Below, in pieces: positions 2 through 5,219 of a stretch of 5,219 nt of DNA (the stretch's first letter is position 1; each line of letters begins with the position of its first letter). Origin of the DNA: Conexibacteraceae bacterium. GTDB lineage: Bacteria; Actinomycetota; Thermoleophilia; Solirubrobacterales; Solirubrobacteraceae. The notes beneath the pieces were generated by a model, which saw only the letters and a list, made by a program, of their open reading frames with translations, made no database searches and was not told where the DNA came from. Both the position numbers and the translations under genes were made by a program. Location of the stretch: contig WQWK01000163.1 of assembly GCA_009785395.1 (NCBI GenBank), forward strand, positions 1 through 5,219, read 5' to 3'.

Positions 2-1102
2 ATAGGTACAACCGCTACGCGGGCGACCACGCCTGTCCTCAGCAAAACTGCGACACCGCAGCCAAGGCATACGCCTCTCGAAAGACTCTCCCCCGCCGAG
101 CTCGCCGGCCAGCGGATCATCTACGCCTACCCCGGCACCACGCCCCCACCCGAGTTGCTGCGTCGTATACGCCGCGGAGAAGCCGCCGGAGTCATCTTCT
201 TCGGTCCCAACATCACGAGCCGCAGCCAATTGCGAGCGGTGATCCGCCGGCTGCAGCAGGCCAACAACTCCAGCCCCATCAATGCGCCGCTGCTGATGAT
301 CGTCGACCAGGAGGGCGGTATCGTGCGTCGACTGCCAGGCGCTCCAAACCAGTCCCAGAGGCAGCTGGGTCAGAGCGCGCGCGGCGAATTGCTCTCGCGC
401 CAAGCGGGAGCAGGTGCAGCTGCCAACCTCGCCACCGTCGGGCTGAATGTCAACCTCGCCCCGGTCATGGACGTGTACCAACACCCAGGGGACTTCATCG
501 ACCAGTTCGAACGGTCCTACAGTTCGAGTCCCGCGCGCGTCGCCACGCTCGGCCGCGGGTTCATCGAAGCACTACAAGCCGGCGGGGTCGCGGCAACCGC
601 CAAGCACTTTCCCGGGCTTGGCGCGGCGGCTCGTGGCCAAGACACTGACGAAGGTCCCGTCCGACTCGATGTGCCGCTCTCACAGCTGCGGGCGGTCGAT
701 GAGGCGCCATACCGTTCGGCGATCGCCGCCGGTGCGCGGCTTGTCATGCTCTCGTGGGCGGTCTATCCGGCCATCGACCCGGAGCCGCCGGCGGGGCTCT
801 CGCCCACCGTCATCGCCGGAGAGCTTCGCCGCCGCCTTGGCTTTGCAGGCGTGACCATCACCGACAGCCTCGGGGCCGGGGCGCTGGATGGGTTCGGCGG
901 TTCCGCTGAACGGGCGGTTCTTGCCGCGCGAGCTGGAGACGACCTGCTGCTCTGCTCTGCCCGCTATGTCGCAGACAACAGCCCCGCCGAGGGCGTTGCG
1001 GCCCTCCACGGCCTCGTGGCCGCGCTGAGCGACCACACGCTCGCCCGCGCGGACGCCGAAGCTGCTGCCAGCCGGGTGCTCGCCTTGCGGCGGCAGCCAT
1101 AG
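2..1102 (+). CDS. Glycoside hydrolase family 3 protein (beta-N-acetylhexosaminidase-like), 5' end outside window
   Basis: This is a single-domain GH3 enzyme, a family of retaining glycosidases that remove beta-linked sugars such as N-acetylglucosamine from cell-wall fragments. The frame is open from base 2 with no ATG, GTG or TTG before 155. The TTG at 155 would remove the first barrel strand (AGQRIIYAYPG), so the true start is upstream. Counting from base 2 (366 residues visible), the GH3 landmarks are VDQEGG with D102, the NLAPVMDV strand, KHFPG at 201-205, and ITDSL, whose D288 matches the catalytic nucleophile. The visible N-terminus is a Thr/Pro/Ala-rich stretch before the barrel, which suggests an exported or lipid-anchored protein, but the signal peptide is not seen. 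The NagZ-type acid/base dyad D-S-H is replaced by D214-T215-D216, so the histidine is missing. There is no second GH3 domain. Family assignment is firm; the substrate is inferred. Confidence 0.9.
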   Translation: MGTTATRATTPVLSKTATPQPRHTPLERLSPAELAGQRIIYAYPGTTPPPELLRRIRRGEAAGVIFFGPNITSRSQLRAVIRRLQQANNSSPINAPLLMIVDQEGGIVRRLPGAPNQSQRQLGQSARGELLSRQAGAGAAANLATVGLNVNLAPVMDVYQHPGDFIDQFERSYSSSPARVATLGRGFIEALQAGGVAATAKHFPGLGAAARGQDTDEGPVRLDVPLSQLRAVDEAPYRSAIAAGARLVMLSWAVYPAIDPEPPAGLSPTVIAGELRRRLGFAGVTITDSLGAGALDGFGGSAERAVLAARAGDDLLLCSARYVADNSPAEGVAALHGLVAALSDHTLARADAEAAASRVLALRRQP

Positions 1103-1188
1103 TGTGTCCACCGGCTCGAGGGGCCGCACCGCAGCAACTCGAGCGTTTGTGAAGAGTTTTTGGCACGTGCCTCATCGGGCAGGTTGGC

Positions 1189-1194
1189 GAGGAA
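1189..1194 (+). promoter_or_regulatory. Shine-Dalgarno site of the secreted-protein gene
   Basis: GAGGAA lies nine bases before the ATG at 1204 and directly abuts another in-frame ATG at 1195, which is too close to use. It supports 1204 as the start. No comparable site precedes the alternative GTG codons at 1104 and 1149. The stretch 1103-1203 also holds a 10-base palindrome at 1162-1171 but no convincing promoter hexamers. Confidence 0.55.
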
Positions 1195-1203
1195 ATGGCG
1201 CTC

Positions 1204-2658
1204 ATGAAGGGCTCTTGGCGTTCGCCGCGGGATTCCTGGCCTGCCTGGCGCTCGCGTTGAGCCCCTCGGTGGCGCGGGCGCAGAGCGCGTTGGTCGCGCT
1301 CACGGGGCCCACCACCAAGGCACCATCACCCGGCGGCCTGCGCGCCGCCCCCGTGCTGGAGGGGCGCGCGCTCGTGTGGGCCGTCGCAGGGCCACACGAA
1401 ACCGAGGTGGTGCAGAGCGAGGTACCTGGGCAGCCGCCCGTGACGCTTGGCGACCTGCCCAGCGGGCAGCTCGCGCTTGCCGCCTCGCCACGCCAGCTGG
1501 TGGTCAGCCGCTCGGTCCAGTTCTGTCCCCAGGCCGACTCGTGCACCCCCAGCTACAGCTATTGGCGCTCTGCCTCAGGCGAGACGCTCACCGGTTTCAC
1601 CGATCCGCAGTTCGGGGTGGTGCAGGTGAGCGGAGAATGGCTCGGGTACACCGAGACCGGCAACTTCGCGGTGGGCGACCCGTTCGAGCCTGCCACCCCG
1701 CCGCTGCGCCTTGGCTTTCCCACCCACCCGACGCTTGCCTACCCGTACCTCGCCTCGGTGATCCAACCAAAAGACGCGCTCGCCTCGGTGATCGTGACCG
1801 ACCTACCCACCGGCGCCGTCGTGCTGCAGGTGCCGGAGGGGCCCGGTGGGGGCACTCTCGAATCCGATGATCTCGACACGCTGCAGAGCGACGGCACCGT
1901 GGTCGTGGACGCCGCGCAACCGACGCAGCCCGCGCGAGGCTCGACCGGCGGGCTGCCGGGGTGGGCATCGCCCGCGCAACCCAGCGTGCATCCGCTCCCG
2001 GCGCTCAGCGGCGCGGTCGGCATCACGATCGCAGATGGCCTCGTCGCCGGCGAACTGCGCCCGCCCGACGAAGTCGGGACAAAGCGCCTGCGAGTGGTGA
2101 ATCTCGCCGGGACCGTAGTTGCCGAACGCACGGTCACCAGCCCGCTTGGCGCCCTCGCCTTCGACGGGGCCCGGCTCGTGTGGGCGCAGGAACCGTGCAC
2201 GGTCGCCTACGCCTCGGTGTGGAACATCGGTGAAACGCCGCCCGCCCCAGCGGACGCTCGCTGCGCGTTGGTCGGAGTGTCGGTCCCCCCTCCCCCGATG
2301 CGCCTGCACGGGGGTCGCCTCCACCTGACACTCCGCTGCCCCGAGTCCGCGACGGCCACCGGCTGCCCCGGCCGGCTCTGGGTGCGCGCGAGGGCCGCCA
2401 GCGGGGCCGGGCCCGGCGCGCAGGGACTCGCGATCCTCGGCCACGTCTCCTACAGGCTCGCTGCGGGGTCCCGGCGGCGGATCGCGATCGACCTCGACCG
2501 CCGGATCCGTCGCTTCCTCGCCGCCGGGACCGTCATCGTGCAGGCAGAGGCGATCGCCAGCCGCCCGACAGGCGAACGTCCCACGCAGGATCCGGGGGGT
2601 GGGCAGTGTGCGCTTCTCCCTGAAGCCGCGCGGCCGGCCCATGGGCACCGCGCACTGA
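1204..2658 (+). CDS. Secreted Thermoleophilia-type protein, beta-rich body plus Cys-containing C-terminal domain; two apparent frameshifts
   Basis: I recognise no enzymatic function. With one G added to the run at 1209-1211 and one removed from the run at 2594-2599, the gene gives 484 residues. It then starts MKGLLAFAAG, has a hydrophobic signal segment and a likely cleavage after ARA (residue 26), and ends SLKPRGRPMGTAH-stop. The body (about 27-365) is rich in short beta strands such as ALVWAVAGP and ARLVWAQEP and resembles a beta-propeller. Cys108/Cys115 and Cys332/Cys354 may form disulfides. The C-terminal domain (about 366 on) carries LTLRC...TGC (Cys379, Cys388) followed by strands and a basic RRIRRFLAAGTV stretch, a module I associate with exported Thermoleophilia proteins. 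Uncorrected, the body frame is open from 1104 to 3389, but codons before 1212 lack the G/C third-position bias and the part after 2658 is antisense to a better gene. It follows the GH3 gene by about 100 bases. It could also be a decaying gene. Confidence 0.65.
1749..1793 (+). repeat. 15-bp direct repeat within the secreted-protein gene
   Basis: CTCGCCTCGGTGATC occurs exactly at 1749-1763 and 1779-1793, a period of 30 bases or ten codons. It makes the peptide LASVI appear twice, separated by QPKDA. Because the repeat is in frame it leaves the protein intact; it may be a small tandem duplication or a chance of codon bias in similar beta strands. Confidence 0.6.
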
Positions 2659-2668
2659 CCCGGCGGCT

Positions 2669-3919
2669 TCAGCGGCTGGGCCGCGTCGCGATCTCGACGC
2701 CGTGCGGCGTCTCGAACGCCAGCAGGATTTCGCCGTCGGCGGTGACAGCCGAGCTGACCTGTTTGTCTTCGTTTTCCCTGCTCAGCAGGCTCGCGCCGCC
2801 GAGGCGCCGCCCGTTACCGACCCTCGCGCGCAGTCGCCCGCTCAGGTGCCCGCCGCGCACGCCTTCCCACGCAACCACGTACTCGCCCTGCTCGCCGATC
2901 GCGAGCGCCCGCAGTTCTTCGCCCCGCCACGCGCCCAGCTGGGGCCCGGCACAGCCTCCGCCCGGCCGACAGACCGACAGCGCGTTGTGCCGTGCGGCGC
3001 TCCCGGCGAGCAGCGCCCAGCCGTCCGCGGCGACCGCCGCCTGGCGCACGCGTTCGATCGCAGGCGGCGCGAACGGCGGCTCAAATACGCCGCCCGGCGC
3101 TCCTCGCGAGAGCCACACGCCCGGTTCGCCACTGAGGATCGCGAGCTGCGCGCCCGAGGAGAGCGTCGCCACATCGAGCGCTCGCGGCGGCCGTTCGGTG
3201 AGGTCGCCGCGCCGCACCAGCAGCGTGCGAGCTGCCCGCCGAATGCCGCGCGCGCTCCACACGGCGCCGCGAAGGGAGCCTTCGTCCTGCCAGGTGATGT
3301 GCAGCCTGCCCGACGCGTCGAAACCCGCGAACACGCCTTCGATGGTGCTCGACAGTTCGTCGATGGGCTGCGGAGCGCCGAAGCCGTGACCGGGCCACGC
3401 GAGATTCACATACGCGCCGGCGGGCTGAAACATGAACCACACGACCGCGGCGCGCCCCCCGGGGCCGAGCGTCACCTGCGGCGCTTCCTCGGCCGACAGG
3501 TTCGCGCCAAGCGGCGACAGCCGCACGACCGGGCCGAGGCCGCGAGGTCCGACACGGACAGCCCTCACCGCGTCTTCGGCCGTCGTGAGCCACGCGACGA
3601 CCGCCCGGCCGTGGCCGTCGATGGCCGCGCCCAGTGGTGCCGCGCCGCCGCGGCCGACTCTGCGCGCCGCGCCGAAGCGCGCTGCGCCCGGCGGCCTCAA
3701 CGCGACGAACGTGTGGTGGGGGCCATCCCACGCCAAGATCGCCCAGCCGTCCGGCGCGGCTGCCACGACAGGAGGTCGTTCGCCTTCCAGCCCCGCACCC
3801 GCGCTGCCCGCGATCCGCGCCAGCCGCCACGGTGAGCGCGCCCAGGCGTTGCCGGCGGCCGCGGCGATCAGCGCGACCAGCGCCAGGACGATGGGTCCGC
3901 CGATCCTGCTCGTTGTCAC
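2669..3919 (-). CDS. Secreted eight-repeat beta-propeller-like protein of unknown function
   Basis: The 416-residue product begins with a GTG at 3919 and has a classic signal peptide: basic start, hydrophobic core VLALVALIAAAAG, cleavage likely after AWA at residue 27. The mature part repeats a pattern of the type (D/G)xxGxxxVxW about every 43-53 residues. Examples end at W64 (DGWAILAW), W110 (GHGRAVVAW), W161 (GPGGRAAVVW), W210 (DASGRLHITW), near 263 and 306 in degenerate form, W351 (GEQGEYVVAW) and F402 (ADGEILLAF). Such strand-turn-strand units are typical of beta-propellers that bind ligands outside the cell. Cys317 and Cys323 could pair. No catalytic motif is visible. A G-run about ten bases before the GTG is only a weak ribosome binding site. 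The gene converges on the plus-strand secreted-protein gene, leaving 10 bases between their stops. The long plus-strand frames through it are Arg/Pro-rich shadows. That it is a real gene is well supported; its function is unknown. Confidence 0.85.
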   Translation of the reverse strand: MTTSRIGGPIVLALVALIAAAAGNAWARSPWRLARIAGSAGAGLEGERPPVVAAAPDGWAILAWDGPHHTFVALRPPGAARFGAARRVGRGGAAPLGAAIDGHGRAVVAWLTTAEDAVRAVRVGPRGLGPVVRLSPLGANLSAEEAPQVTLGPGGRAAVVWFMFQPAGAYVNLAWPGHGFGAPQPIDELSSTIEGVFAGFDASGRLHITWQDEGSLRGAVWSARGIRRAARTLLVRRGDLTERPPRALDVATLSSGAQLAILSGEPGVWLSRGAPGGVFEPPFAPPAIERVRQAAVAADGWALLAGSAARHNALSVCRPGGGCAGPQLGAWRGEELRALAIGEQGEYVVAWEGVRGGHLSGRLRARVGNGRRLGGASLLSRENEDKQVSSAVTADGEILLAFETPHGVEIATRPSR

Positions 3920-4024
3920 AGTTCGAGAACCCCCGTCGCGCGGGGATGTTGCGAGCGGGCGATGCGCTGCTCAGAACCCCAGCACTTTCGGGGGACCATC
4001 AGGCACTACGGTGCTCGGTAGAGG
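3920..4024 (-). other. Intergenic stretch between the 57-residue gene and the propeller-like gene
   Basis: This 105-base gap contains a small hairpin GCAC-loop-GTGC at 4003-4014, a CCCC/GGGG inverted repeat with a nine-base loop at 3977-3994, and CCCCG/CGGGG at 3931-3945. None is followed by a T-tract on the minus strand good enough to call a terminator, and no clear promoter hexamers were found. It should hold the end of the deaminase transcript and the leader of the propeller gene, and it coincides with the change in base composition. Confidence 0.4.
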
Positions 4025-4198
4025 TCAGCGAAGAAGCTCCTCACTTACCTCGACTGGACGCCAGTGCCGTGGTGTGGGTGACGCTGTTTGAGCGTCTCGG
4101 ATCTCCTCGCGAACCCGCTTGGCTACCTGCTCGGGATCAAACCCTTTTCGCAGCCATTGGAGATCCGCGTCGGTCGCGGTTCGGATGTTCTCGCTCAC
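4025..4198 (-). CDS. 57-residue charged protein, translationally coupled to the deaminase gene
   Basis: I do not recognise this protein. It starts with a GTG at 4198 that overlaps the TGA of the deaminase gene by four bases (GTGA) and stops at 4025. A strong GGAGG ribosome binding site sits seven bases upstream. The product begins MSENIRTATDADLQWL; residues about 11-38 (TDADLQWLRKGF, then DPEQVAKRVREEIRD) look like one or two amphipathic helices rich in Arg, Lys, Glu and Asp. The tail is PTPRHWRPVEVSEELLR. It has no signal peptide, membrane segment or cysteine, so it is probably cytosolic. Overlap plus ribosome binding site argue for co-expression with the deaminase, as with a partner, antitoxin or regulator, but no role can be read from the sequence. 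Known AvcID systems use an RNA antitoxin upstream of avcD, so a downstream protein would differ from that. It could also be an unrelated small gene carried on the same island. Confidence 0.75.
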   Translation of the reverse strand: MSENIRTATDADLQWLRKGFDPEQVAKRVREEIRDAQTASPTPRHWRPVEVSEELLR

Positions 4199-5219
4199 GT
4201 TTCGTCCTCCGTGTCAGTTGGGATGGGGACCTTAAGTCCGATGGTTTTTGAAATAAGCTGCACGAAGTCTTCTGTCAGCTCGCTCTCGAGCTCAGCGATG
4301 CGGGTAGTCGGAAGCGCTGGCCCCCCGAAGGCAAATGATCCCGCGCTTTGCAGCACTCTGGGAGTCGCCGCCTGTCGCGCGCTCGTGGCCATGGCGCGCC
4401 CTCGAGCATCCTTGCGACTTGTCGGTCCAAAGTCAAAGTACTGTGGATAGACCCGTGGCGCTACGCCGATGTACTGCTCGAAGACCACCTCGCCGTCTAC
4501 AATTCCAGGTCGCTCCGGCTCTAGGACGACTACGTCGTCGTGAAGGTCGCGGGCAAGGCTCTTGGCGTAGGGGTGCATGTAGAGAACACGCTTTATCTCG
4601 CTTGCGATCATATGCCGGACACAGTTGTGGCAAGGAAAGGTGGTACAGACGAGCGTCGACTGATCGATCGCCACACCTCGGCGGGCGGCAGTCGTGATCG
4701 CGTCCATCTCAGCGTGAACCGATCGCCCAAACTCTGTGATCGAGCTGAAGCGAGTGCCGCTGACCGCCCGTAGGAAATCATCGAGCTTGTCCTCGGGAAC
4801 GTCGAACCCATCCGGATCGAGCTTCGTGAGGCGCCTTTGATTTGCCCATTTGGTGCGCGCCATCTGGACAAGTAGCTCGCGCGCGATTCTCCGTTGCCAG
4901 AGAGTGTTCGAATCGAGTGGTGGCTGCCGCGCGAAGTCGCGCCCATCGGGCTCGTCGGGTGACCAATATATTCCACCCTTGCCGGAGGGCACCTCGTTGG
5001 TGCCCACAGCGAGAAGGTCGCCCGCCGCACTGATGATCGCGGCGCCGACTTGGCGCCCCATCTCGGCGCTGCGAAGCCCAGCGCCGAAGGCATGGTACAT
5101 AGCCTGTTCCTCGCGGTAGGGAGGGACGAACGGCTCTCCGAAGATGAGGCTCACGATCCGTGGGACCACATCACTCAGAGTTGTCTCGCTGCGGCCGTCC
5201 ACGAAGAAGTCAGCCAGCG
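4195..5219 (-). CDS. avcD: AvcD-type anti-phage deoxycytidylate/dCTP deaminase, catalytic part; 5' end outside window
   Basis: The product is a zinc-dependent deaminase converting dCTP/dCMP to the uracil forms. In AvcD-type phage defence this drains the dC pool needed for phage DNA synthesis. Numbering from the internal GTG at 5202, zinc and catalytic residues are H163-A-E165 in SVHAEMDAI and P190-C191-x-x-C194 in TTFPCHNCVRHM. Features shared with AvcD rather than plain dCMP deaminase are LIFGEPF, LRSAEMGRQVGAAI, GTNEVPSGKGGIYW, DGRDF, the roughly 70-residue stretch from there to HAE, and FEQYIGVAPRVY followed by RKDARG. The frame stays open beyond 5202 (LADFFV before it, also AvcD-like), so the GTG is probably not the start. 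AvcD proteins usually carry an N-terminal P-loop domain, expected past 5219. The gene is less GC-rich than its left-hand neighbours and overlaps the 57-residue gene. The deaminase fold is near certain; the AvcD assignment is by recognised motifs, and the P-loop domain is unseen. Confidence 0.85.
   Translation of the reverse strand, partial: LADFFVDGRSETTLSDVVPRIVSLIFGEPFVPPYREEQAMYHAFGAGLRSAEMGRQVGAAIISAAGDLLAVGTNEVPSGKGGIYWSPDEPDGRDFARQPPLDSNTLWQRRIARELLVQMARTKWANQRRLTKLDPDGFDVPEDKLDDFLRAVSGTRFSSITEFGRSVHAEMDAITTAARRGVAIDQSTLVCTTFPCHNCVRHMIASEIKRVLYMHPYAKSLARDLHDDVVVLEPERPGIVDGEVVFEQYIGVAPRVYPQYFDFGPTSRKDARGRAMATSARQAATPRVLQSAGSFAFGGPALPTTRIAELESELTEDFVQLISKTIGLKVPIPTDTEDET
4206..4210 (-). 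promoter_or_regulatory. Shine-Dalgarno site for the 57-residue protein
   Basis: On the minus strand this reads GGAGG, a full match to the anti-Shine-Dalgarno core, seven bases before the GTG at 4198. It lies inside the last codons of the deaminase gene, and its placement decides the start of the small gene. Confidence 0.8.

Follow-up and report, generated by a model that had tools for sequence, protein, structure and literature searches.

The founding papers on AvcD-type deaminases are said to be those of Hsueh (2022) and Tal (2022), and we know of no account of how such deaminases are controlled outside the studied Vibrio systems. Enzymes that deplete nucleotides need to stay off in healthy cells and to be on at infection. 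In the published descriptions, AvcD deaminates dCTP and dCMP, the RNA AvcI inhibits AvcD, and AvcI is lost once phage stops host transcription (PMC10511110; also PMC9455884, PMC12409362); PMC9455884 places AvcI upstream of avcD.

Here we describe a 5,219-nucleotide stretch of DNA (the window) from a Conexibacteraceae bacterium. The reading that we consider likeliest, and hold with moderate confidence, is that the end of the window carries the 3' portion of an anti-phage module, probably gained by horizontal transfer, in which an AvcD-like deoxycytidine-nucleotide deaminase is joined by a translationally coupled partner of 57 residues. With the AvcD of AvcID, the Vibrio system with the RNA antitoxin AvcI, this enzyme and its relatives share a two-part protein, zinc motifs, framework loops and matches to the NF041025 and PADLOC models. 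They differ from it in that the full-length close relatives fall below the 400-bit equivalog cut-off of NF041025, in an N-terminal loop that reads GLVYGAG in the near clade versus GLCGA.GSG in gammaproteobacterial members (the Vibrio cholerae protein itself lying outside the comparison), and in the coupled small gene downstream in the window.

The deaminase gene and the small gene behind it

On the minus strand, a reading frame runs without a stop from the window edge at 5217 down to a TGA at 4195-4197, and profiles and alignment identify it as the C-terminal 340 residues of the deaminase (4195-5217). All of the motifs named in a preliminary description of this DNA were located on that strand: the zinc and catalytic motif HAE (4708-4716), whose H and E are invariant in a 31-row alignment (A1); the zinc motif PCHNC (PCxxC; 4621-4635), both Cys of which are invariant in A1; a framework at 4933-5055 comprising RQVGAAI (5035-5055), GTNEVP (4987-5004), GGIYW (4963-4977) and DGRDF (4933-4947), whose core residues vary little or not at all in A1; and GVAPRVY (4447-4467). 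The NF041025 match ends at residue 263 and is followed by a C-terminal tail (4198-4428, minus strand) that contains PRVLQSAGSFAFGGPALP (4309-4362, minus strand) and has a similar counterpart in the near-clade proteins of A1.

The deaminase is not a chance frame, because 2840 of 7996 scored database candidates match it at E ≤ 1e-3 (the best 120 were listed). Its best match after the window's own protein is a deaminase of 537 amino acids from a Solirubrobacteraceae MAG (P0002), 76% identical across all 340 residues; thus, the GTG at 5202, near which the preliminary description had allowed that the gene might start, is not the start of the deaminase, and about 197 N-terminal residues lie past the contig end. 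By this comparison the full protein has about 537 residues. Going by the names given to P0002 and to another match, P0013, the host is probably a member of the Solirubrobacteraceae, and it probably lives in soil. Among the 119 listed relatives, 85 have 500-600 amino acids, 6 have 450-499 and 28 are shorter.

Directly behind the deaminase lies a gene of 57 codons (4025-4198, minus strand), termed here the HWRP type, which was absent from the preliminary description and is a new observation. Its GTG (4198-4196) and the deaminase stop overlap within four bases (GTGA), its own stop ends at 4025, and a GGAGG resembling a Shine-Dalgarno sequence (4206-4210, minus strand) stands 7 bases before the GTG; a GGAGG occurs 4-14 bases upstream of 2 of the 182 start codons on the minus strand. 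Judged by the GTGA overlap and the GGAGG, the small gene is translationally coupled to the deaminase, and it is conserved. A sequence search with the small protein alone gave no match. A chimaeric protein of 577 amino acids (P0107) contains the C-terminal half of a deaminase followed by a stretch 18/33 identical to the small protein, and a query made from the alignment of the small protein with this tail found one protein, the free-standing P0121 (55 amino acids; source contig of 1,518 bases), 25/51 identical to the small protein from residue one. P0121 and P0107 are identical over the small-protein stretch, so they may be close kin and are counted as one independent homologue. Protein-level selection on the HWRP type is indicated by conserved residues. 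In 131 family genomes, the search for an HWRP-type gene returned two partial matches at about chance level (E = 0.004 and 0.006 per genome). P0107 joins an NlpC/P60 protein to the deaminase half and the small protein, and is likely to be artefactual or to represent a decayed copy.

Within the window's own clade, an HWRP-type gene adjoins a deaminase in two loci only, the window and the odd chimaera P0107, which counts against the module reading, as does the absence of the N-terminal third of the deaminase from the window. The small number of such loci, together with the RNA antitoxin AvcI of the AvcID system (PMC10511110), would instead suit an ordinary AvcD-like defence enzyme held by an upstream RNA, with the small gene as an accessory that plays no part in control. 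We consider this unlikely, though it survives better than the other alternatives, because the small gene has GTGA coupling, a ribosome-binding site and protein-level conservation, and because short proteins recur beside the deaminase in other clades (see below).

Family assignment and the N-terminal region

The deaminase fragment scored 242.6 bits against NF041025 (anti-phage dCTP deaminase) and 289.6 bits against the PADLOC dCTPase model, versus 43.6 bits against the ComEB/plain dCMP deaminase model TIGR02571, whose cut-off of 219.45 bits was not reached. It also matched Pfam PF00383 (56.9 bits) and phrog_9198, of unknown function (210.1 bits). Against PDB sequences, the best score was 39.1 bits, for a match lying mainly in residues 156-217 and covering the dCMP-deaminase core only. 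ComEB/dCMP deaminases with solved structures (7fh4, 2hvv, 1vq2) thus share the PF00383 zinc core with the window enzyme and differ in that only this core aligns; the solved chains listed have 138-193 amino acids, which leaves no room for a second domain as large as that of the relatives. These scores bear out the earlier claim of an AvcD-type framework as opposed to a plain ComEB/dCMP deaminase.

The profile search that the preliminary description had proposed favoured the dCTP deaminase models over ComEB, but the NCBI equivalog cut-off of NF041025 (400 bits) was missed by all eight full-length near-clade proteins scored (P0002, P0009, P0012, P0022, P0030, P0053, P0087 and P0092), at about 357-380 bits (356.9-379.6), even though nearly the whole model is matched from residue 15 of P0002. 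The chimaera P0107, left out of this set, scored 144.5 bits. Proteins that pass at 400 bits or more are P0105 (411.0), the E. coli plasmid member L107 (498.0), L108 (424.2), L109 (425.3) and L001 (428.7), and L104 (363.7), L106 (284.0) and L081 (388.6) are below. The PADLOC dCTPase model gave 425-439 bits for five full-length near-clade proteins (P0002, P0009, P0030, P0053 and P0087), 471 bits for P0105 and 601.4 bits for the E. coli plasmid member. On a quick tree of 103 proteins, the window enzyme groups with P0002, P0009 and P0012 (SH-aLRT 100). This group falls within a wider clade of 18 rows, made up of database proteins and including P0105 (SH-aLRT 100). Because the full-length close relatives stay below 400 bits and because of the tree, we term the window enzyme AvcD-like, a member by sequence of a sister subfamily, and not formally AvcD.

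The preliminary description had left the choice between defence and pyrimidine metabolism to a P-loop domain expected past the contig end, and this test proved unsuited to the family. A Walker A motif (G....GK[ST]) is present in 0 of 137 aligned relatives that have the N-terminal region (near-copies included; later-fetched loci and L001 left out), so the P-loop test would discard the whole sampled family. At the Walker A place, the window's closest relatives read GLVYGAG[A/T][E/D] and gammaproteobacterial members read like GLCGA(I/V)GSG(V/I)K; YG[ASVT]G is present in all 74 listed relatives up to P0100 that have the N-terminal region. Pfam gave no N-terminal domain in the three proteins searched (P0002, P0105 and L107). 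The approximately 200 N-terminal residues of the relatives are covered by NF041025.

The separate branch formed by the near clade on the quick tree, its scores below 400 bits and its own C-terminal tail might be taken to mean that a deaminase of the same fold acts in defence on another target, such as RNA, another nucleotide or a signalling nucleotide; we regard this as improbable, since the zinc motifs and framework loops are those of the family. More doubtful still is a decayed or broken copy without function, a reading to which the cutting of the gene by the contig end and the existence of two broken-looking relatives (P0107 and P0102) lend something, but against which stand 340 codons without a stop, motifs that are all intact and the close identity to P0002.

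Distribution, neighbourhood and base composition

Relatives of the deaminase, here more distant ones of about 40% identity or less, are patchily distributed. They were found in 2 of 396 genomes of a phylum sample reached via an actinobacterial MAG (the centre genome itself accounts for one of these two), and in 5 of 399 genomes of the class and 4 of 146 genomes of the family of G122, the genome, among 246, with the protein that best matches the glycosyl hydrolase family 3 (GH3) protein of the window (45%). Sixty of 72,556 plasmid records match the deaminase, 46 of them covering at least 80% of the query, whereas among 1256 matching phage records of 50,697 only 2 cover at least 80%; the other phage matches among the 20 listed are annotated as dCMP or deoxycytidylate deaminases. 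The near-clade deaminase locus was not found in the genome contigs, viral contigs, plasmids (by DNA) or genome sets searched.

The neighbourhoods of 12 relatives were read (six genome loci and six plasmid loci), and chosen neighbours were profile-tested in two of them. In L082, at about 40% identity, the deaminase adjoins genes for type I restriction (REase_I, 1166 bits), and a gene for an integrase lies at a distance of about 5 kb; in the plasmid locus L108, it adjoins Gabija-like genes (GajA 220 bits, GajB 144 bits). No defence gene was seen elsewhere in the window itself, a further point against the module reading: PADLOC gave no matches for its three other large proteins or for the small protein, and among these the Pfam cut-off was reached by the GH3 protein only. 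The G+C content of the deaminase (61.0%) and the small gene (60.3%) compares with 68.5, 72.3 and 74.7% in the three other genes of the window. The sparse relatives, the defence and integrase neighbours and the lower G+C fit a mobile accessory gene, and the deaminase and small gene were probably acquired horizontally.

The preliminary description had held that the motifs mark a defence locus and not housekeeping pyrimidine metabolism; the patchy spread and the two relatives beside restriction or Gabija-like genes fit that claim, but the Walker A on which its decision was to hang does not decide it. A housekeeping dCMP deaminase of pyrimidine metabolism, which has in its favour the PF00383 core and the residual ComEB score, is the least credible reading and was rejected on profiles and distribution, given the far higher NF041025 and PADLOC dCTPase scores, the 500-600 residues with a second domain of 85 of the 119 listed relatives and the rarity of relatives in the family genomes.

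Elsewhere in the window, 2-1102 (plus strand) encodes the GH3 protein, an N-terminal-domain protein resembling NagZ and below the NCBIfam cut-off (142.5 versus 207 bits). An open frame at 1104-3389 (plus strand) runs antisense through the gene at 2669-3919 (minus strand); by eye, a stop near 2658 would suit the end of a plus-strand gene but is in another frame, and a frame change before it is possible. Rfam returned in the window nothing besides a nadA match at 3864-3952 below the gathering threshold (24.3 versus 37.5 bits), taken as chance, and only tRNAs in eight relatives.

Short genes beside other deaminases and a possible mode of control

Short genes of other types adjoin AvcD-type deaminases in other clades. 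One family, WPxWK (motif EV..WP.WK), is found behind deaminases in acidobacterial, planctomycete, actinobacterial and other loci. A WPxWK HMM built from seven seeds before 21 later loci were fetched gave 8 matches at E < 0.01 among the 2133 frames of those loci, each lying immediately behind the deaminase on the same strand; 13 of the 21 loci have no match. In 25 deaminase-bearing whole genomes, a 14-row alignment (A3) gave 16 matches at E ≤ 3.3e-5, in 14 genomes, of which 15 are directly downstream of a deaminase and one is elsewhere; since 14 of those 15 are seeds, this search shows mainly the near-absence of WPxWK from other places in these genomes. The lone outlier (L133, 1492-1683, minus strand; L140, G1214:C83) is the last gene of a cluster that encodes a DNA methylase, an NsnA-like GmrSD_N protein and a MAE_28990-type HEPN protein, which shows that WPxWK genes also occur away from deaminases. 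Among 199 genomes of the G801 phylum, with at most 31 candidates scored per genome, a deaminase is present in 6 and a WPxWK gene in 5, all within those 6; four of the five gave seeds, and only the absence from the other 193 genomes is therefore independent.

For a second family, LxW, an iterated search of 18,042 frames ended with 31 matches at E < 0.02, and all 31 adjoin a deaminase. Six of the 31 are seeds and iteration brought in the other 25, which makes their E-values non-independent; the near-copies L048/L049 and L032/L050 are among the 31. The gene is upstream of the deaminase in 21 (gammaproteobacterial genomes, an E. coli plasmid and IMG/VR contigs) and downstream in 10 (desulfobacterial and Geobacter-type genomes, a Nitrospirae MAG and others). 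The first round, which used downstream seeds only, added at E < 0.02 one downstream match (L016) and one upstream match (L021). On the E. coli plasmid, the gene annotated as hypothetical that precedes the deaminase (L107, 3688-3873, plus strand) belongs to LxW. A short gene of a third kind, FRERV(I)QDL-like and grouped by eye, lies downstream of the deaminase in L011, L024, L026, L051, L053 and L056; this FRERV type forms one clade on the tree and is perhaps distantly akin to LxW (L024, E = 0.001).

When each frame was cut back to the stretch that does not overlap the deaminase, dN/dS was 0.15-0.27 in 6 of 9 pairs (five LxW and one FRERV; two of the six with dS of about 2) and saturated in the other three, among them the sole WPxWK pair. 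Protein-level selection is thus shown for the LxW and FRERV types, and for WPxWK it is indicated by conserved residues. Labels of small-gene type change 17 times on the deaminase tree versus a shuffled mean of 61.6, so the distribution of the short-gene families follows that tree, some labels having been set by eye and L012 and most FRERV loci having weak HMM scores. The tree includes 80 loci, and in 29 of them no short gene of these kinds was found by the criteria used; L003 and L091 have look-alikes that the HMM does not accept. Comparison with hhalign gave no kinship among HWRP, WPxWK and LxW (probabilities 0.2-0.3%), and the window's small frame was not among the matches of either the WPxWK or the LxW HMM; kinship of the small protein with these families was rejected, and the analogy between the partners is positional.

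Ten LxW-deaminase gaps were folded. A hairpin with a z-score of -3.4 to -6.0 (0 of 200 shuffles as good) is present in five (L006, L009, L018, L031 and L010), and the other five have z-scores of -2.3 to +0.2. By eye, the hairpin covers the likely ribosome-binding site of the deaminase in L006 and L009.

Under the reading of the window as an anti-phage module, and by analogy with AvcD, phage infection would set the deaminase to turn dCTP and dCMP into dUTP and dUMP, depleting a pool that the phage needs. The small protein is perhaps its partner or inhibitor: made from the same message through the GTGA overlap, it would most likely bind the enzyme and keep it quiet, as a protein antitoxin or regulator. 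If it were produced together with the enzyme but disappeared faster once expression stops, it could work the same switch as AvcI, by protein. We know of no experiment on the near clade, and a protein partner for AvcD-type deaminases was not found in the literature searched, a search that most subscription journals lay outside.

More tentatively, and with appreciably less confidence than for the window itself, AvcD-family deaminases might in general be two-protein systems, in which a clade-specific short protein (HWRP, WPxWK or LxW) would serve as protein antitoxin or trigger. The gammaproteobacterial LxW gene is directly upstream of the deaminase, in the slot that AvcI is reported to occupy in Vibrio, so the same stretch there may hold both an RNA and a genuine protein gene. 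If the small genes are real partners, the published picture of an RNA antitoxin would describe one branch only, and the family would offer a ready set of testable protein partners.
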